From Chlorobiaceae bacterium (GTDB taxonomy: Bacteria > Bacteroidota > Chlorobiia > Chlorobiales > Chlorobiaceae), in the NCBI GenBank assembly GCA_013335115.1, contig JAAXWQ010000007.1:1-64000 (forward strand): a DNA stretch of 64,000 nucleotides, written 5' to 3'. The notes under the pieces were generated by a model that saw only the letters and a program-made list of their open reading frames with translations, ran no database searches and was not told the DNA's origin. Both the position numbers and the translations under genes were made by a program. Of the stretch, positions 312 to 8,297 are shown piece by piece; position 1 is the first letter of the stretch; the number at the start of each line of letters is the position of its first letter.

Positions 312-711
312 TCAGCCAGCAGGCCCATCAAGGAGCGTCTTGACTGAGGCGCTAAGGGTTCGAAGAGAAAACGGCTTTGGCAGAAAGTTGACGTCCCGAG
401 CCCCGGCCGAAGATTCCTTATCGACATATCCGGACATAAACAGGATCTTGAGGTTCGGAATGACAAATTTAAGACGATCCGCAAGCTCAAAGCCATTCAT
501 TTCCGGCATCGACACATCGGTCACCAGCAGGTCAATGCGGTGCTGATGTTGTTGGGCAATCCGGAGTGCCTGTAGTGGTGATGTGGCAGGCAAAACATTA
601 TACCCCCCCCCCCGTATGTAAAACGCGATGCAACAGCTTAACTATTTCATGCTCATCATCGACAAGGAGAATGGTTTTTTCCTGCAATGGGCTTTGGTTG
701 ATGCCGTCCAT
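312..711 (-). pseudogene. Response-regulator receiver domain, frameshifted at a run of 11 C
   Basis: Read on the minus strand, an ATG at 711 opens a receiver domain with the acidic pocket ILLVDDE followed by HRVLHTGG. The frame then stops just after the G11 run (C at 603-613 on the plus strand). One base removed, the next frame continues in register as YNVLPATSPLQALRIA, then the phospho-acceptor region LLVTDVSMPEMNG, MSGY and the conserved lysine in LPKPFSL, ending at a TGA at 312-314. A 7- or 10-base tract would restore about 132 residues. It resembles the C-terminal receiver of the hybrid kinase at 57909-59672. It could be a dead gene, a phase-variable gene or a homopolymer sequencing error. 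An in-frame stop shortly upstream of the ATG argues against a fusion to a kinase. Confidence 0.75.
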
Positions 712-822: not shown

Positions 823-895
823 GATAAGGGGACGTCCTAAATTTCCTTAAGCAAAAAATACTGAAGGAAATTAAGGACGTCCCCTTTTTCTTATC
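823..895. repeat. Long inverted repeat (REP- or MITE-like hairpin)
   Basis: The left arm, 826-848, reads AAGGGGACGTCCTAAATTTC and on. Its complement is at 864-886 with one mismatch in 23 pairs, around a 15-base loop rich in A. The outer bases GATAAGG and CTTATC also pair after a small bulge. The right flank contains the stop codon of the aminotransferase gene (TAA on the complement of 891-893), so the element sits exactly at that gene's 3' end and may serve as its terminator. GGGGACGTCC-type palindromes are often mobile REP-like repeats; that assignment is inference. Confidence 0.6.
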
Positions 896-2048
896 CGATC
901 TTTGCAGCGCCGGAGATGATGGCGGCCGAGAGCTTGTCAATCGTGGCGTCGTCCATGAGTACCGGGATGTTCAGGCAGATGCTGCTCTGCAGGAGCTCGC
1001 CGGTCTTCGGCCACAGCTCTTCGAGGTTGGCGTCACGGTAGCGGTCGTAGCCCTTGAGCAGGTGGCCCCACACGGCCGCATAGTGCCAATCGATGGCTTC
1101 TGGCAGGATCTTGGTGCCAAACCCGTGCTCCGTGAGGTGCGCCTCGAACTGCAGGGCCGTCTGGCGGTCGCGCAGCTTGAAGATGAGCGTGTCGCCCTGG
1201 GCGCCGGCCTCATCGGTGAAGGGCCTCATCATGAGGTTTGAGAGGTGGCTGATGCGATCCTTGATCTTGTACTTGTTCTCGCGGGCTTTCGACAGGATAT
1301 AGTCGATCTTGCCGAGCTGGGCGATGCCGATGGCGGAGGTCACCTCGCTGAGGCGGTAGTTCAGGCCCTTGGCGCGGCGTGGGTCCTTGCCTCGCGGCAG
1401 GCCGGGCACGTGCATGTGGCCATGGTCCGAAAACTCGGCCACGCGGTCGTAGACATCCTTGTCGTCGGTGACGATGATGCCGCCCTCGCCGACGTGCAGG
1501 GTCTTGCCTGCGTCGAACGAGAAGGAGGCAACCTTGCCGATGGTACCGAGCTTCCTGCCCTTGTAGGTTGCTCCAAGCGCCTGGGCGGCATCCTCGATGA
1601 GGATGATGCCGCGGCTATCGCAGATCGCCTTGATCTCATCCATCTTCGGCGGCGCCCACATCGGGATGGCCACGATTGCCTTCGTCTTCGGGGTGATGGC
1701 TTTTTCGACCTCTTTGGGGTCGAGGTGGTAGGTCTCGTCGATCTCGACCGGCACCGGCACGGCGCCGAGGGCCGCAGCGGCCTCGACCGGCGCGATGAAG
1801 GTCCATGCCGTGGTAATCACCTCATCGCCAGGACCGACGCCGGCGCCAGCCAGGGCGCAATGGATGGCTGCGGTGCCCGATGAGACGGCGTGGGCATATT
1901 TCACCCCCATGTAGTCGGCGAATTTCTCCTCGAATTCCCTCGACTTGTAGTTGCCGGGAGCGTAACGGTACAGGGTGGTCTTCTCCCTGCTGAACAACTC
2001 CTGGATCTCGGCCAGCTCTTCGCGGCCTATAAGTTCTGCTCCTGCCAT
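891..2048 (-). CDS. DegT/DnrJ/EryC1 aminotransferase, KdnA-like
   Basis: A 385-residue PLP-dependent sugar aminotransferase. SSGTAAIHCALAGAGVGPGD (57-76) is the usual phosphate-binding start. D153 in IEDAAQALG contacts the pyridine nitrogen and K182 in DAGKTLHVGEGG is the Schiff-base lysine. It is the last gene of a minus-strand operon, 33 bases after a KdnB-like alcohol dehydrogenase. In Shewanella that pair turns Kdo into 8-amino-Kdo: KdnB oxidises carbon 8 and KdnA transaminates it. The same role here is inferred from the pairing; another keto-sugar substrate is possible. The stop codon touches the inverted repeat at 823-895. Confidence 0.75.
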   Translation of the reverse strand: MAGAELIGREELAEIQELFSREKTTLYRYAPGNYKSREFEEKFADYMGVKYAHAVSSGTAAIHCALAGAGVGPGDEVITTAWTFIAPVEAAAALGAVPVPVEIDETYHLDPKEVEKAITPKTKAIVAIPMWAPPKMDEIKAICDSRGIILIEDAAQALGATYKGRKLGTIGKVASFSFDAGKTLHVGEGGIIVTDDKDVYDRVAEFSDHGHMHVPGLPRGKDPRRAKGLNYRLSEVTSAIGIAQLGKIDYILSKARENKYKIKDRISHLSNLMMRPFTDEAGAQGDTLIFKLRDRQTALQFEAHLTEHGFGTKILPEAIDWHYAAVWGHLLKGYDRYRDANLEELWPKTGELLQSSICLNIPVLMDDATIDKLSAAIISGAAKIG

Positions 2049-2081
2049 GGTATTTGTAAATTTGGTGGTTAGTGGTGGTGC

Positions 2082-3212
2082 TTACGTCAATGCATCGATC
2101 ACGATGTTGGCCGACGCTTCGTTGAACTCGACGGGGTTGCCGGAGAACGATCCGGAGAGGGCCATCGAGGCGTTCCTGGCGAGTTCCGCCATGTTGCCCT
2201 TGCCGTAGCCGTAGGGGGCGAGGTTCGGTATCGAGAGCTGGCAATAGAGCGAATCCATCTGGTCGAGCAGTTCGGCACTCGCCTCCCTGGCCGTGCCGCC
2301 GGAGTGCATCGGATTGAGCATGGCGTACTTCTCGTACCCCTGGTTGTAGTTGTAGCGCATGACCTCCTTAAGGAAGATCGCTCCGGCAAGGCCGTGCGGC
2401 ACCTTGTGCTTGACGCCGACGTAGTAGGCGAAGCCGTTGGTGGGGCCGTCGCCCGAGTTCATCAGGGCCGTGACGCCGCAGACGCTGCCGAGGGCAAGGT
2501 CGAGGCGCGATTCGGCCCGGTCGAGCTGCCCCTGCTGGAGGGCGTAGAAGGTGCGCTGGAAGCCTTCGATCGAAAAGATGCGGCTCATCGGGGTGTGCTT
2601 CTTCGAACCGAAACTATCGACACAGTGCACCAGGCTGTCCATGGCTGATGCGATCACGCTCTCCATCGGGGCAGTCATGGAGAGCTTCGGGTCGATGACC
2701 GACTTCTTCGGGAAGTTCTTCCTGCTGTTGATGCCGAGCTTGCGCCCTTCGGCCTCGTCGATGAAGACCGCGTTGAAGCTCACTTCGGCGCCGCTACCCA
2801 GGAGCGAGGGCACGGTGATGAGCGGGACCGGGTCCGAGACATCCTTCGGGAATCCCTTGAGCGACAGGGCCGGCACGTTGTTGGTCAGGAGCAGCGCGAC
2901 ACCCTTGCCGAGGTCCATGGTGCTGCCGCCACCGATGGCGACGAGCCCGTCCGGGGATTCGCGACGGAAGAATTCGGCGACATTCTCCAGATGGGCATAG
3001 GTCGGCTCACCACGGAACTCGTTGCAGTAAACCACGCTGTTCGAGTATCCGACGCTGATGTTGCGCAGGACGTCCTGGAAGTAGTCGCTACCGGTCAGGA
3101 CCGCATCGTAGATGATGCCCGGCTTCTTGACACCGAGGGACTGCAGGTGTTCATGGACGGTGAGCGCCTCGTTGACCCCGATGCTCAGGTCGGTGGAGAG
3201 GAAGAAGTTCAT
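2082..3212 (-). CDS. Iron-type alcohol dehydrogenase, KdnB-like (Kdo 8-oxidase)
   Basis: A 376-residue group III (iron-containing) alcohol dehydrogenase. GGGSTMDLGKG (94-104) binds NAD(P), TVPSLLGSGAEVS (133-145) is the family block, and metal ligands D192, H196 and H273 (in PHG) are visible. The position where I would expect the third ligand histidine, about 14 residues before PHG, appears to be Asn259; by-eye alignment is uncertain here. The gene starts 9 bases after the CMP-sugar synthetase and is followed by the aminotransferase. This order points to oxidation of a sugar alcohol before transamination, as in Kdo8N synthesis. Family membership is sure; the exact substrate is inferred. Confidence 0.75.
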   Translation of the reverse strand: MNFFLSTDLSIGVNEALTVHEHLQSLGVKKPGIIYDAVLTGSDYFQDVLRNISVGYSNSVVYCNEFRGEPTYAHLENVAEFFRRESPDGLVAIGGGSTMDLGKGVALLLTNNVPALSLKGFPKDVSDPVPLITVPSLLGSGAEVSFNAVFIDEAEGRKLGINSRKNFPKKSVIDPKLSMTAPMESVIASAMDSLVHCVDSFGSKKHTPMSRIFSIEGFQRTFYALQQGQLDRAESRLDLALGSVCGVTALMNSGDGPTNGFAYYVGVKHKVPHGLAGAIFLKEVMRYNYNQGYEKYAMLNPMHSGGTAREASAELLDQMDSLYCQLSIPNLAPYGYGKGNMAELARNASMALSGSFSGNPVEFNEASANIVIDALT

Positions 3213-3221
3213 GGTATGGTA

Positions 3222-3941
3222 TTATTGGTGTTGGTTGTCAGGTCGTGCGGCCGGCGCGGGCAGCCCTTTTTTCTTCAGGTAATATTCAACGAGGTCGACC
3301 TCTTCGATCGTGTCGATCTCCCAGGTCTGCCAGAACTCCATGGTGTAGGCGGTCAGCTTCTGCCCGATACGGTTGCCGTATCGCTTCAGCACCTCGGGGG
3401 TGAAGATGTAGATGGATCCGTTCTCGATGAACTGTGCCGGGCGGTCCTGGCGCATCCCGCGGTTCCGGTAATCGAAGTTCACGCTGTCCCAGGCCTCCTG
3501 GCGGCGCTCCCAGATGGTAAGGTCGTCCGCCCGGGTGACCGAGATGAGCGAATCGGCGCCTTCGTTCCTGAAGGTCTCGATCGCGCGGTCGATATCACCG
3601 GGAAGCCGGAGGGGCGAGGTCGCCTGGAGGAAGACCACCGTATCGGGAACCACTCCATGGTCACGGGCGACAGTTTCGAGGGCGTGCTGGATGGCCGCCT
3701 CGGAGGTAGCCTTGTCTCCGCTGATCCCGTCCGGCCTCTCGATGACCTCGGCGCCGTACTCCCTGGCGACCTCGGCGATCGCCGGATCGTTGGTGGTCAC
3801 GAAGACCCGGTCGACAAGGACGGCTTCAAGGGCCTGCTGCACGGTCCATGCCAGCAGCGGAATACCCGCCACGGGATGGATATTCTTGTTCACGAGCCCT
3901 TTCGAGCCTCCCCTGGCGGGTATGACGGCAATGGTCTTCAT
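3222..3941 (-). CDS. CMP-sugar synthetase (NeuA/acylneuraminate cytidylyltransferase type)
   Basis: 239 residues from the ATG at 3941; an in-frame ATG at 3953 is also possible but lacks a better ribosome site. The N-terminus reads [20 protein letters not shown], the CTP-binding signature of the NeuA family. LQATSPLR and RAQ-like [16 protein letters not shown] are family blocks. It transfers CMP to a 2-keto-3-deoxy sugar acid. KdsB enzymes, which usually activate Kdo, start differently (PARxxSTRLPGKP). So a NeuA-type enzyme is paired here with Kdn-like genes. The activated sugar could be 8-amino-Kdo or a nonulosonic acid; the sequence alone does not decide. Confidence 0.8.
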
Positions 3942-3972
3942 GTCTCGGGTCATCAGCTAAGATTATGGTTCC

Positions 3973-4929
3973 TCATCCGTCGATCACCTGACGGCACACC
4001 TCGGCGATACGCTTTGCCGCCGAGCGGTTCTGGAGCGGGGTCAGCGCCTTGAGCACCTCGGGGTCGAGGCCGCAATACACCTCTTTGCCAAGGGCGGAAG
4101 CCACGAAAATGGTGGAGGAGAACTGCGCGATCAACATCTGTGAATTGGCGATCATCTCCTCGGTTTTGCCTTCGGAGAACACCAGGCTGTCGGGGGCGTA
4201 AAGCTCGACCTCCCGGGTTGCGCGCTCGACGTTCTCGTTCGGGTGGAGCTTGAAGAGCAGCTGTCGCCCGTCGGCTATTTCGAGGTACTTTTCGATGTTC
4301 CTGCGCCGGTTCTCGTAGATGAAGGTCTCGCGGTTGTCCGAAGTGCAGACCAGCACGTAGTCGCGATGGGGAAAATCGTTGACGTGGTAACGGGCGCAGT
4401 CGTCGAAGTTCGGGATGCTGGTCACCTCGATCTTGTCGGGATTCACCCCCTTGCCGATGAACACTTCACGATACCCTTCGCTGGCGACGCAGAACTTGTC
4501 GTAAACGTCCGAAAGGCCGGTTGTCGACGTACCGGCAATCCAGCGGGGCACCCAGCGGAAGTTGCGGGCAAGATGGAAAAGGATGGTTTCCGGTTCGGTC
4601 ATACCCTCCTGGACCAGGACGACCCTCTTTTTCCTGAAGTGTTTCGGGACGATCAGGTCGGTGCAGGTCACCACCAGGTCGTACGGATGCAGGATGCCCC
4701 CGACATCGATGTTCAAATCATGCGCGATAAGGTAATCCACCGCCCTGCCGGAGCGTTTTTTGCCCATGATGGTAAACTCGAGCATACCCAGGTCGCTGGC
4801 CTTGCCGAGCAGGCCGTCGCTGAAAAACGGCGTAAACCACTGGTCGTAATCACCGAGATGGCTGGCGATCTGGTGCATTTGCGTTGTCTGGTTCATCGAT
4901 CCGCAGACGAACAGGACCTTCTTGCTCAT
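3973..4929 (-). CDS. Probable glycosyltransferase-like protein (GT-B type fold)
   Basis: 318 residues, no signal peptide or membrane segment. The N-terminal MSKKVLFVCGSM strand-loop and a C-terminal half with LLFKLHPNENV (about 226-236), then SQMLIAQFSSTIFVASALGKEVY, look like the nucleotide-sugar half of capsule-type or CDP-glycerol-type transferases, in which KxHP and S-S-T motifs recur. Its ATG overlaps the stop of the upstream membrane protein (ATGA at 4926-4929), so the two are translationally coupled. Context suggests transfer of the CMP-sugar made by the next three genes. I cannot place it in a named family with confidence. Confidence 0.5.
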   Translation of the reverse strand: MSKKVLFVCGSMNQTTQMHQIASHLGDYDQWFTPFFSDGLLGKASDLGMLEFTIMGKKRSGRAVDYLIAHDLNIDVGGILHPYDLVVTCTDLIVPKHFRKKRVVLVQEGMTEPETILFHLARNFRWVPRWIAGTSTTGLSDVYDKFCVASEGYREVFIGKGVNPDKIEVTSIPNFDDCARYHVNDFPHRDYVLVCTSDNRETFIYENRRRNIEKYLEIADGRQLLFKLHPNENVERATREVELYAPDSLVFSEGKTEEMIANSQMLIAQFSSTIFVASALGKEVYCGLDPEVLKALTPLQNRSAAKRIAEVCRQVIDG

Positions 4930-5984
4930 GCGACCTCCCCGTCCGCCTTTTGGGCGTCGTCGAGCCGTATGCCTTCAAGGAACATGACGATGTAGCCGAT
5001 CGCGTACCACAGGATCTCCTTGGCCCTGCGCAGGAGCAGGAAGGCCGCAAGGTCGGCCTGGGAAACACCAAGGGCGCCGAAAAACGCGAGATACCCCAGT
5101 TCCTGGACTCCAAGCCCGGAGGGGATGAAAAAAAAGATCGCCCTGAGCATGAGCATCGCCGTATCGAAGGCAAGCACCTGCCCGAATGCGAGCTTGATGC
5201 CCAGGAGGTGCAGGATGAGGTAGCTCTCGACCGAGAGCATGAGCCAGGCGCAAATGTAAACAACCATGACCGGAACGAGGCCCGCCAGTCCGTCGGCCCT
5301 GAGGCTATGGAGCTTGCGGTCGGTCTCGGCAAACCCCTCCTCACGCTCGAGCAGCCAGGCCTTGACTTTCCGGAAAGGCACCTTCACCAGGAGCCGGTGG
5401 AGCGTCCCCACCGCCTTCCCGTTGACCATCATCAGCAGCATGGCCAGGAAAGAAATCGTAAGCAGCAACCCGACGGCAAACATGACGAAACCGAGGCCGC
5501 TGAACCCCGCGACTTTGGTCGACGCCGACTGCAGGATCGAGAAACCGGCAACGGCCCCGATGATCGTGTAGAGTCCCTGGGCAACGCCAAGCATGAGCTT
5601 GCGGACGGTGATGCTGGCAAAGCCGTCGGGAAGCGGCACACCCATGAAACGCCGGCAGAGCCAGGGCCGTAGGGGCTCACCCACGGCTACGCCCGCAGGC
5701 AGCGTCATCGAAACGGTCTCCGCCACGACCTGGATCTTGAACAGCTTCCACAGGTCCACCGGGCCGACGCTTCTGGGAAACAGCCGCCCCCAGGCAACCG
5801 TCTCAAGCAGGTGAAGGCCAAGGTATGGCAGCAGGATCAGGATCGAGGCGAACCCGATTGCATCGATCCGACGGAAGGCGCCTGCGAGGTCCATATTCGA
5901 CAGCAGGTAGCCGATTAATATGAAACCGACGGCCAAGCCTGCATAGCCAGGCAAGTTCCTGCCAGTTTTTTTTCCTGGATTCAT
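4926..5984 (-). CDS. Flippase-like integral membrane protein (UPF0104/AglD-MprF type)
   Basis: 352 residues from MNPGKKTGRN at 5984; the open frame extends upstream but the extension has no membrane-protein character. It has about eight hydrophobic segments, starting with GLAVGFILIGYLLSN. Family hallmarks are LLETVAWGRLF, the LPAGVAVGEPLRPWL loop and FIPSGLGVQELGYLAFFGAL near the C-terminus. Relatives include the MprF flippase half and archaeal AglD. As first gene of the operon it probably moves or presents a lipid-linked or envelope glycoconjugate made by the genes that follow. No biochemical role can be read from the sequence. Confidence 0.75.
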   Translation of the reverse strand: MNPGKKTGRNLPGYAGLAVGFILIGYLLSNMDLAGAFRRIDAIGFASILILLPYLGLHLLETVAWGRLFPRSVGPVDLWKLFKIQVVAETVSMTLPAGVAVGEPLRPWLCRRFMGVPLPDGFASITVRKLMLGVAQGLYTIIGAVAGFSILQSASTKVAGFSGLGFVMFAVGLLLTISFLAMLLMMVNGKAVGTLHRLLVKVPFRKVKAWLLEREEGFAETDRKLHSLRADGLAGLVPVMVVYICAWLMLSVESYLILHLLGIKLAFGQVLAFDTAMLMLRAIFFFIPSGLGVQELGYLAFFGALGVSQADLAAFLLLRRAKEILWYAIGYIVMFLEGIRLDDAQKADGEVA

Positions 5985-6467
5985 GGAGTAGGGATAAGGA
6001 GAATACCAACAATGCCGTAACAAAACATAAGCAGCAGGTTCGAAGGGAAATCGATTCAGAGAACACATCACTGCCATCGCACTCGACTGGGTGGATTGCC
6101 ACGTCACAACGGTCCGGCAGGAACGGAAGCGCCGCTGCGCCGCTGAGCCCGATCGAATATACTAAATAAAGCTCGCCCCTGAAAGCGCTCCTCCATATGG
6201 TTGCAATACGTTTCGGGCACACTCTGGAAAGCACCTGCCCGCCAAGTACCTGCCGTAACACATTCGCCATAAACTCGCCAAAAAACAGCCAGAAACGGAC
6301 AAAAGCTGTTGGAGAAAAGCGTAATGATTGTTACATAATTGTAACGGGCAGTAAACATCGAAACACTTCTTCTCCTTTCCGGACGTTAACGAGGCGCATG
6401 CCGCAGCGGATGCAGGATCCAGCCTTGCCCTGCCGGTGCATTTTCCACGACACAAACCCCTTCGCTT
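5985..6467. promoter_or_regulatory. Divergent 480-base intergenic region without a gene
   Basis: This lies between the minus-strand sugar operon and the plus-strand acyl-CoA synthetase and must hold both promoters. No reading frame in it has coding character. The central-right part (about 6240-6380) is more AT-rich and contains the palindrome listed separately at 6330-6345. I see no riboswitch or tRNA. Confidence 0.6.
6330..6345. promoter_or_regulatory. Perfect palindrome, candidate operator for the acyl-CoA synthetase gene
   Basis: GTTACA TAAT TGTAAC is a perfect 6-4-6 palindrome about 120 bases upstream of the start at 6468. Its size and AT-rich centre suit a dimeric repressor. No protein can be named for it. 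Confidence 0.35.
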
Positions 6468-8297
6468 ATGGGACTCATAAACCCGGATTTTCAGACGTTA
6501 CCGGAACTGTTCACCTCGGTATTCAGCCATTTCAGGGGACAGGGCGGCAAATCTCCCATCGCACGAAAAATCAACGGGTCATACCAGCCCATCAGTTACG
6601 ACTCCCTCGAAAAGGACTACCATCACCTGGCGGCGTTCCTCAAATCGCAGGGTATCAAGCAGAATGACCGGGTTGCCATCCTTTCAGAAAACCGTCCCGG
6701 CTGGTACCTTTCCGACATGGCGATCCTGTCGGTCGGCGCCATAGACGTGCCGCTCTACCCTTCCCTGCCTCCGAACCAGATCGAATACATCCTGAACAAC
6801 TGCGGGGCAAAAGGGATCGTCGTCTCCAACATGCTTCAGCTCGGCAAGATCATGTCCATATGGCAGAACCTTCCCGACCTGAACCTGGTGATCGTCATGA
6901 ACAGGCTCGAAGAGGCAATCGAGGACGTGATCGACCTGAACCATGCGAAAACCGCGGGGGAGCAGATCCTGACCGACAAGCCATGGATACTCGAAGGCCT
7001 CAAGACTGAACCGGACGACCTGGCGACCATCATCTACACCTCAGGCACGACCGGCCTTCCCAAAGGGGTCATGCTGACCCATCGGAACATCTGCGAGAAC
7101 GTCAAATCGTGTGCGGCGGTCATCCGCATCGACGAAACCGACACCTGCCTGTCGTTCCTCCCGCTCTCCCATGCTTACGAACGAACCGGCGGCTACTACC
7201 TGATGTTCGCCTGCGGTGCCCGTATCTACCTTGCCGAAAGCGTCGAGACCATCTCCCTCAATATCTCCGAATCCAGGCCGACCTTCATCTTCACGGTGCC
7301 GAGGCTGTTCGACCGCATGAAGACCAGCGTCCTGAAGGGTGCAACCAGCGAGGGTGGCATGAAGCAGAAGGTCTTCTTCTGGGCGGTCAGGACCGGCGAG
7401 AAGTACCACAAACAGCTGGCCGAGGGGAAAGTATCGTCGTTCATATCGATGCAACATGGCCTTGCCGACAAGCTTGTGTACAGCAAAATCATGAAAAAAT
7501 TCGGTGGGCGCCTTCGCTACTTCGTTTCCGGAGGGGCCGCACTCCCCCAGAAGACCGGAGAGTTCTTCCAGTCGATCGGCATCATGATCCTCGAGGGATT
7601 CGGACTGACCGAAACCTCTCCGGTCACCCACATCAACCGTCCCGAGAAACTCAAGTTCGGCACCGTAGGGCCGGCGGTCAAGAATGTGGAAGTCAAAATC
7701 GCCGAAGACGGGGAGATCCTGCTCAAGGGCCCCAACATCATGAAGGGATACTGGAAGGATGAAGCCGCGACGGCGGACGTGATGAAGGACGGCTGGTTCT
7801 GCAGCGGGGACATCGGCGAGATCGATGCCGACGGCTACCTGAAGATCACCGACCGGAAGAAGCACATCATTGTCACCTCAGGCGGCAAGAACATCGCCCC
7901 GCTACCGATCGAAAACCTGATCCACGAAAGCCCGTTCGTCGACCAGGCCATGATCGTCGGTGAAAAACGACCGTTCCTCATCGCCCTGATCGTCCCCGAT
8001 TTCACGAAACTGAAGGAGTTCGCCGCCGAGCACGGCATCAAGGCATCAAGCAACCGGCAACTGATCGAAAACAAGGAGGTCCTGCAGATCTACGAAAAGC
8101 TCCTGAGGAACATCTCGCGCCAGCTGGCCACGCATGAGAAGGTCAGGAAGTTCCTGCTCCTCGACGATGCGTTCTCAATCGAGAACAACCTGATGACCCC
8201 GACGCTCAAGCTGAAGCGGAAGGATATCCTCAAGAAGTTCAACCCGGAGATCGACAATGTCTACAACGCCTTGAACATGGTCTACAACACGGAGTGA
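6468..8297 (+). CDS. Long-chain acyl-CoA synthetase (AMP-forming)
   Basis: 609 residues of the ANL adenylating superfamily. The P-loop [20 protein letters not shown] lies at about 189-208, [12 protein letters not shown] is the A5-type motif, and [20 protein letters not shown] then [17 protein letters not shown] form the hinge and C-terminal lid. The extra helical block after the P-loop fits the bacterial long-chain (FadD15-like) group. It activates fatty acids with ATP and CoA. In an anaerobic phototroph this is more likely for recycling exogenous or membrane fatty acids into lipids than for beta-oxidation; that is inference. Confidence 0.9.

Follow-up and report, generated by a model that had tools for sequence, protein, structure and literature searches.

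Does an operon of the Chlorobiaceae that combines an alcohol dehydrogenase and an aminotransferase with a CMP-sugar synthetase make an 8-amino sugar like the Kdo8N of Shewanella, or a different one? The operon occupies positions 891-5984, on the minus strand, of the window, i.e. the whole 64,000-nucleotide stretch of contig JAAXWQ010000007.1 that was analysed.

Gene content and conservation

All five open reading frames recognised in the first-pass annotation were found, tightly packed (an overlap or gaps of 9-33 bases) and in the order flippase, GT-B glycosyltransferase, NeuA-type synthetase, iron-type alcohol dehydrogenase (Fe-ADH) and DegT aminotransferase; the Pfam calls, in the same order, are LPG_synthase_TM, none, CTP_transf_3, Fe-ADH and DegT_DnrJ_EryC1. 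With the divergent neighbour, the features are:

891..2048, minus strand: DegT-family PLP aminotransferase, in the sister clade of KdnA (PF01041; PDB; tree)
2082..3212, minus strand: iron-type alcohol dehydrogenase, from a lineage other than that of KdnB (PF00465/PF25137)
3222..3953, minus strand: NeuA-type CMP-sugar synthetase (PF02348; best PDB match PpNeuA/NeuA; tree)
3973..4929, minus strand: glycosyltransferase of GT-B fold, with a putative CMP-nonulosonate donor (AlphaFold model; motifs; neighbourhoods)
4926..5984, minus strand: flippase-like membrane protein (LPG_synthase_TM/HpnL-like), the operon's first gene (PF03706, 94.5 bits)
6468..8297, plus strand: AMP-forming long-chain acyl-CoA ligase, divergent neighbour (PF00501; FadD-type models below cut-off)

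The longest reading frame of the flippase-like protein begins at 6107, but its homologues align from about residue 41, consistent with a start at 5984; its score against the HpnL model is below the cut-off. That this protein and a dedicated transferase belong to one operon, as had been claimed, is borne out, both being found there and conserved in the Chlorobiaceae; the flippase-like protein is retained beside the transferase in this family (48-64%) and in sister families (29-37%).

The five-gene order is kept in all 20 Chlorobiaceae loci fetched, usually with the same acyl-CoA ligase alongside, and the operon's dehydrogenase is present in 82 of the 86 members of the family; a chance arrangement is therefore unlikely. 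As to the four members without it, G013 breaks off at a contig end and the other three genomes are 66-86% complete. The operon is conserved across the Chlorobiaceae and does not occur in the sister families. At one of the 20 loci, extra DNA separates the dehydrogenase gene from that of the synthetase. A scan of IMG/VR did not find the aminotransferase.

Relationship to the Kdo8N pathway

The operon is like the Kdo8N system of Shewanella oneidensis (KdnB, KdnA, KdsB) in its set of an Fe-ADH, a DegT aminotransferase and a CMP-sugar synthetase. The likeness proposed at first holds for the logic of dehydrogenase plus aminotransferase, KdnA being the best solved relative of the latter, yet the trees do not extend it to the identity of the enzymes.

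A case in point concerns the dehydrogenase. KdnB (5k8c) is matched in the PDB search at E 2e-15 only, with 29 other structures ranking above it, whereas a Bacteroidota KdnB (L142) matches the same structure at E 7e-134. In the tree, the KdnB clade (KdnB is FeADH3, cd08184) is set apart at 100/100, while the Chlorobiaceae enzymes group with SAR86 (100/100) and then with L139 and L287 (100/99). Moreover, the set of metal ligands Asp, His, His, His is not complete: the third, corresponding to His263 of FucO, is Asn in Chlorobiaceae and SAR86, and L139 and L287 have Gly or Ala there; the remaining ligands are kept. The residue lies in a TNGF motif, and relatives have His at the ligand position. 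As read from the sequence, this altered site casts doubt on an ordinary dehydrogenase activity. Identity with KdnB is thus contradicted both by the tree and by the loss of a metal-ligand His; placement in another family, named in the first-pass annotation as counting against its proposal, therefore applies to the dehydrogenase and, in part, to the aminotransferase. A phosphonate reading of the gene (PsrA-type Fe-ADH) was dropped as well, the Phn_Fe-ADH model scoring 120 against a cut-off of 424.

The aminotransferase stands closer to its Shewanella counterpart, KdnA being its closest PDB match (5k8b, E 1e-77) and the S. oneidensis enzyme being 42% identical to it. In the tree it falls in a clade (100/99) that is sister to a separate KdnA clade (100/99) excluding it, so that relatedness to KdnA is upheld and orthology is not; the substrate-side motif differs too. 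Its clade contains all 8 entries from NeuB clusters, and the members from outside the Chlorobiaceae all come, bar one, from NeuB-type clusters. The motif TK[IN][LI]P[ED]A..WH is common to the window's aminotransferase and its NeuB-linked homologues. As a sole marker of nonulosonate use, the motif fails on L194, where an aminotransferase of the same type shares its operon with a synthetase of the KdsB type; a C9 substrate is therefore unproven from the aminotransferase type alone.

The third enzyme had been described as NeuA-like rather than KdsB-like, and PDB matches, profile scores and tree placement all agree. In the family profile search, the PseF model gives 105 bits and no KdsB model exceeds 64; because the score is below the PseF equivalog cut-off, no substrate can be named. 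The synthetase belongs to a NeuA-side clade (100/98), the KdsB clade (97/93) being separate, and it is 48-51% identical to SAR86 orthologues adjoining NeuB. The evolutionary link of the operon is to NeuB and not to KdsA. A canonical KdsB is encoded elsewhere in the same genome.

It might still be argued that Kdo8N is made as in Shewanella and that a NeuA-type enzyme was recruited to activate it beside the ordinary KdsB. With KdsA and KdsB both in the genome, Kdo is available as a precursor, and both the nearness of KdnA and the gene pairing in L194 would fit. However, genuine Kdo8N-type loci of Bacteroidota combine KdsB with orthologues of KdnB and with a KdnA that scores 50-62% against the Shewanella enzyme, and all three differ here; the transferase and the synthetase follow NeuB rather than KdsA/KdsB, and the SAR86 and Bacteroidota neighbourhoods likewise indicate NeuB. 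This explanation is regarded as improbable. Membership of the Kdo8N pathway itself is rejected by the trees and by the PDB and family searches, and the 8-amino octulosonate once envisaged as the product is not supported, on three grounds, namely a dehydrogenase outside KdnB, an aminotransferase in the sister clade, and NeuB/NeuA neighbourhoods.

Association with NeuB and proposed chemistry

In other bacteria, homologues of the dehydrogenase, the aminotransferase and the transferase have nonulosonate genes (NeuB/NeuA), not KdsA/KdsB, as neighbours. In SAR86 loci L214 and L286, orthologues of the synthetase, dehydrogenase and aminotransferase (48-51%, 46-48% and 60-64% identity, respectively) stand in the same order directly before NeuB, which there is a CBS-NeuB-SAF-TIM-barrel fusion, unlike the SAF-less NeuB of Chlorobiaceae; no orthologue of the transferase was seen. 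A close aminotransferase occurs patchily, in 3 of 203 genomes of the SAR86 order.

The transferase has no Pfam match and no family profile above its cut-off. Its AlphaFold model (pLDDT 85, pTM 0.85), which with more diverse sequences superseded an earlier one from 17 close sequences (pLDDT 60), has GT-B structural matches, among them TagF, a bacterial polysialyltransferase and a capsule polymerase with bound CMP. HPNE is invariant in 23 of 23 orthologues, all 23 have S-[ST], and QEG occurs in the 22 of 22 covering the site; the first motif is Q-E-G, versus the acidic-Glu-Gly of sialyl-type GT-B transferases. The modelled fold and the motifs fit a CMP/CDP-using GT-B enzyme. Of 18 Bacteroidota loci with orthologues (47-59% identity), 15 have the transferase and a SAF-less NeuB in a single operon, in many cases together with a HAD protein, and two further loci are cut by the fetch edge; the transferase tracks NeuB rather than Kdo.

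This Bacteroidota cluster (GT-SpsF-transketolase-class III aminotransferase-SDR-HAD-NeuB), for which no name or usable literature was found, shares with Chlorobiaceae an orthologous transferase, the HAD and the SAF-less NeuB, and likewise has a single cytidylyltransferase, dehydrogenase and aminotransferase. The latter two, however, belong to families unrelated to those of the operon, and the cytidylyltransferase comes from another branch of PF02348; a transketolase was not seen in the fetched Chlorobiaceae loci. Judging from these sequences, the SpsF/transketolase/class III aminotransferase/SDR cassette appears to have been replaced in Chlorobiaceae by the NeuA/Fe-ADH/KdnA-like enzymes.

In Chlorobiaceae, NeuB and HAD are encoded together, away from the operon. 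NeuB passes the cut-off of its family but not those of the NeuB_NnaB and PseI equivalogs, and has no SAF domain, the domain that in NeuB contacts the N-acetyl group. BT1713, a KDN-9-P phosphatase, is the best PDB match of the HAD, in which inspection reveals the Glu56/Lys67 pair described for BT1713. Its best NCBIfam model, NF058599 (KDN-9-P phosphatase), gives 139 bits, under the cut-off of 180 and only 10 above KdsC (129); because of this, and because the KdsC-like protein adjoining KdsA has no nucleophile, the HAD might serve Kdo-8-P. Among 74 good genomes of the Chlorobiia, 73 encode NeuB and 73 the transferase; a single genome (G088) is without both, keeps KdsA and KdsB, and has no second strong cytidylyltransferase. 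L323, with the order NeuA-HAD-NeuB, has the same genes as the KDN pathway described in Bacteroides (PMC6200933). Along the same line, the genome has counterparts of the KDN-9-P synthase, phosphatase and CMP-KDN synthetase of Bacteroides thetaiotaomicron and Prymnesium parvum in its NeuB-family synthase, BT1713-like HAD and NeuA-type synthetase, whereas Chlorobiaceae add the dehydrogenase, aminotransferase, dedicated transferase and flippase-like protein, with the genes spread over two loci.

The operon may thus be regarded, with a probability of about 0.6, as making and attaching an aminated nonulosonic acid, a sialic-acid-like C9 sugar, and not 8-amino-Kdo. As to the chemistry, I infer substrate, carbon position, order of steps and acceptor alike. 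The SAF-less NeuB and the KDN-9-phosphate-phosphatase-like HAD would yield a free C9 acid, which is most likely KDN, with mannose-6-phosphate as the starting material. The Fe-ADH would oxidise one of its hydroxyls, and if it acts like KdnB this would be the terminal CH2OH, at C9; the KdnA-like aminotransferase would then aminate the oxidised carbon, probably C9. The aminated sugar, predicted to be 9-amino-9-deoxy-KDN or an isomer close to it, would be coupled to CMP by the NeuA-type enzyme. The GT-B transferase would pass it to an acceptor in the envelope or to a lipid, and the PF03706 protein may move the product or its lipid carrier. Counterpoints are that NeuB and HAD are unlinked to the operon, that the transketolase of the ancestral Bacteroidota cassette is unexplained by a plain KDN route, and that the sister genus g8 has an SpsF-type enzyme and the transferase unlinked.

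Since DegT aminotransferases usually aminate ketones, amination at C8 or C7 is possible; a keto group at C8, C7 or C4 might be the target, or the skeleton might be an N-acetylated or deoxy nonulosonate, and related aminotransferases do occur in clusters (L139, L195) that also contain NeuC and genes of the LegC type. Yet KdnA, the nearest characterised relative, acts on a terminal aldehyde in Kdo8N synthesis, the core NeuB has no SAF domain, and at the SAR86 loci with true orthologues NeuC is absent from the surrounding 10 kb or so, all of which makes such variants unlikely.

Acceptor and significance

For the predicted aminated nonulosonate, a compatible alternative to lipopolysaccharide as the acceptor is a membrane glycolipid, whose sugar head the operon would build. 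An aminoglycosphingolipid of Chlorobium limicola is on record (Jensen 1991, cited in PMC11762602), and KDN-bearing sphingolipids occur in Emiliania huxleyi (PMC6200933, PMC12471762). In the genomes, an acyl-CoA ligase, a candidate and possible lipid link, lies beside the operon and also in L288, L289 and L299 of sister families; the PF03706 protein is flippase-like; and NeuB has an OlsE-like fatty-acid hydroxylase as a neighbour at loci of Bacteroidota and of sister families. Acyl-CoA ligases and proteins of the flippase-like kind can have many roles, though, and a glycolipid in place of lipopolysaccharide is put forward tentatively, at somewhat less than even odds; the lipid hints by themselves favour the two acceptors equally. 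Protein O-glycans (of an S-layer, pilin or similar) are a doubtful third candidate: the transferase orthologues match the BFO_1060 glycosyltransferase family at 36 bits, below its cut-off, and no oligosaccharyltransferase or polymerase is visible in the neighbourhood.

9-Amino-9-deoxy-KDN is a constitutional isomer of neuraminic acid, the name reportedly given to the sugar of the C. limicola lipid. The literature searched held no description of it as a natural sugar, and nothing usable on neuraminic acid in Chlorobium or on nonulosonic acids in Chlorobi. A more speculative proposal, for which the chances seem rather low, is that a membrane glycolipid of Chlorobiaceae, for instance the aminoglycosphingolipid, has as its head group 9-amino-9-deoxy-KDN or a closely related sugar made by the operon, while the parallel, largely non-homologous SDR/class III aminotransferase/SpsF cassette makes a comparable amino sugar in Bacteroidota.

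To sum up, the preferred reading would assign a biosynthetic locus to a universal, uncharacterised component of the green sulfur bacterial envelope, and predicts a terminally aminated sialic-type sugar beyond the known Kdo8N system. A sugar-nucleotide cassette would have been exchanged for an unrelated one while transferase, synthase and phosphatase were retained. Related aminotransferases would have arrived in parallel at two amino sugars, Kdo8N from a C8 acid and an amino-KDN from a C9 acid. If this is true, annotations as 'N-acetylneuraminate synthase' would be misleading in Chlorobia and in many Bacteroidota.

The operon and its distribution

The minus strand carries a tight operon of five genes (891-5984), encoding a PF03706 flippase-like protein, a glycosyltransferase (GT) for which the Pfam search returned no family, a PF02348 CMP-sugar synthetase, an iron-dependent alcohol dehydrogenase (ADH) and a DegT aminotransferase; the functions assigned to these genes are all predictions from sequence. 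The host genome (2.1 Mb in 29 contigs, 99.6% complete) also encodes a canonical KdsB and a KdsA, as well as exactly one NeuB-family protein, of 289 aa, in which the domain search found no SAF domain; a KdsC-family HAD gene precedes it on the same strand. The host family is called Chlorobiaceae because three loci (L211-L213) whose records bear that name have this same operon. The ADH is present in 82 of its 86 genomes, the four missing cases being due to a contig break (G013) or to incompleteness, and is absent from all 12 sister-family genomes. Gene order is unchanged in all 20 fetched loci, most of which have the same divergent acyl-CoA ligase within view. Downstream of the operon, a short ORF (312-593, minus strand) matches a receiver domain, its best match being the C-terminal part of CckA-type kinases; possibly, it is the end of a longer gene.

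Placement of the enzymes relative to the Kdo8N pathway

The best PDB match of the aminotransferase is KdnA (E 1e-77), the aminotransferase of Kdo8N (8-amino-Kdo) synthesis in Shewanella. In a tree of 72 sequences, Shewanella KdnA forms a clade (100/99) with 19 Bacteroidota KdnA-like proteins, and the window enzyme lies in another (100/99), whose members are the Chlorobiaceae enzymes, that of locus L194 and eight encoded in nonulosonate clusters. The ADH is far from KdnB (PDB E 2e-15); in a tree with flagged long branches, it is split from KdnB at 100/100, joins SAR86 at 100/100 and, with L139 and L287, forms a 100/99 group. The His aligned with one of the metal ligands of FucO is Asn, Gly or Ala in 18/18 members of the window ADH group, and is kept in all other aligned ADH rows, including KdnB. 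The synthetase groups with NeuA enzymes (100/98), separate from the KdsB clade (97/93) that contains the Kdo8N-type partners.

Genuine KdnA-type loci in Bacteroidota are often accompanied by KdnB orthologues and KdsB. All three occur together in L140, L141, L142 (whose ADH matches the KdnB structure 5k8c at E 7e-134), L145 and L153, likely Kdo8N producers outside Shewanella. L194 has the window-type aminotransferase motif and KdsB as partner; KdsB, a non-KdnB iron-dependent ADH and a KdnA-like aminotransferase are found in L194:8064-11140, L205:7440-10804 and L206, possible Kdo8N operons with a different dehydrogenase. Two MAGs, one actinomycetotal (L193) and one verrucomicrobial (L197), have a KdnB-type dehydrogenase and a KdnA-like aminotransferase next to NeuB, a further combination of components which suggests that aminated nonulosonates occur elsewhere too.

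The NeuB product as candidate substrate

Three lines point to the NeuB product as the putative substrate of the operon. In two SAR86 genomes (L214, L286), an orthologous synthetase-ADH-aminotransferase trio in identical order is directly followed by a NeuB fusion. This protein (L214:11155-13401, L286:11116-13362) has 748 aa and joins, as read from L214, CBS, NeuB, SAF and a xylose-isomerase-like TIM barrel.

The sister families have both the flippase-like protein and the GT, the latter at 57-59% identity in L288, L289 and L291, and in L288, L289 and L299 the acyl-CoA ligase adjoins them too; an SpsF-type cytidylyltransferase takes the place of the trio and one family (f2) has a split transketolase and a class III aminotransferase in addition. 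In Bacteroidota, a SAF-less NeuB (62-76% identity) shares an operon with a GT orthologue, SpsF, class III aminotransferase and SDR, usually also with transketolase, and in many cases with the HAD. GT and NeuB occur together in 15 of 18 such loci (L313-L330), two of the others being cut by the fetch edge and the last, L323, being NeuA-HAD-NeuB. This widely conserved, unnamed Bacteroidota operon (L288, L289, L314-L330) comprises glycosyltransferase, SpsF-type cytidylyltransferase, split transketolase, class III aminotransferase, SDR, KDN-9-P-phosphatase-like HAD, SAF-less NeuB and an OlsE-like hydroxylase.

The phylogenetic profile agrees with the NeuB product as the likely substrate: among good Chlorobiia genomes, NeuB is present in 73/74 and GT in 73/74, the single exception for both (G088) retaining KdsA and KdsB.

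The putative sugar and its attachment

The absence of a SAF domain from NeuB argues against an N-acetylated substrate. The NeuB-linked HAD best matches a KDN-9-P phosphatase (BT1713 in the PDB); against NF058599 (cut-off 180), the Chlorobiaceae HAD scores 139 bits and that of L317 160, both scoring lower against the KdsC model (129 and 151). Synthase and phosphatase make up the phosphorylated KDN route (PMC6200933). The ADH and the KdnA-like transaminase could convert the terminal CH2OH of KDN into CH2NH2. In the Bacteroidota cassette, too, a dehydrogenase (SDR) is accompanied by an aminotransferase, here of class III, a type of enzyme whose substrates are often terminal aldehydes, and both cassettes may give the same kind of amino sugar. 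A plain KDN route does not account for the transketolase of the ancestral cassette.

Another KdsC-like protein lies beside KdsA:
L292:7631-8194, minus strand, KdsC-like protein beside KdsA (also L305-L308, L310, L312)
It lacks the HAD nucleophile Asp in 7/7 Chlorobiia genomes where found, FPID, FTID, ISLD and similar replacing DxD, and in Chlorobiaceae the catalytic Lys is missing too; judged by these residues, it is a conserved pseudo-phosphatase, and the HAD linked to NeuB may therefore act in Kdo synthesis as well.

The predicted structure of GT is of the GT-B type (pLDDT 85, pTM 0.85); its top-ranked matches are UDP-GlcNAc 2-epimerases, and TagF, a polysialyltransferase and a capsule polymerase with bound CMP are among the others. 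All 23 orthologues have HPNE without variation as well as S-[ST], and QEG occurs in 22/22 covering the site. Possible hints of a lipid come from the acyl-CoA ligase, the flippase-like protein and the OlsE-like hydroxylase that adjoins NeuB elsewhere; they bring to mind an aminoglycosphingolipid known from Chlorobium limicola (Jensen 1991, as cited in PMC11762602). The formula of 9-amino-9-deoxy-KDN, C9H17NO8, is that of neuraminic acid. The sugar of the C. limicola lipid was reportedly described as neuraminic acid.
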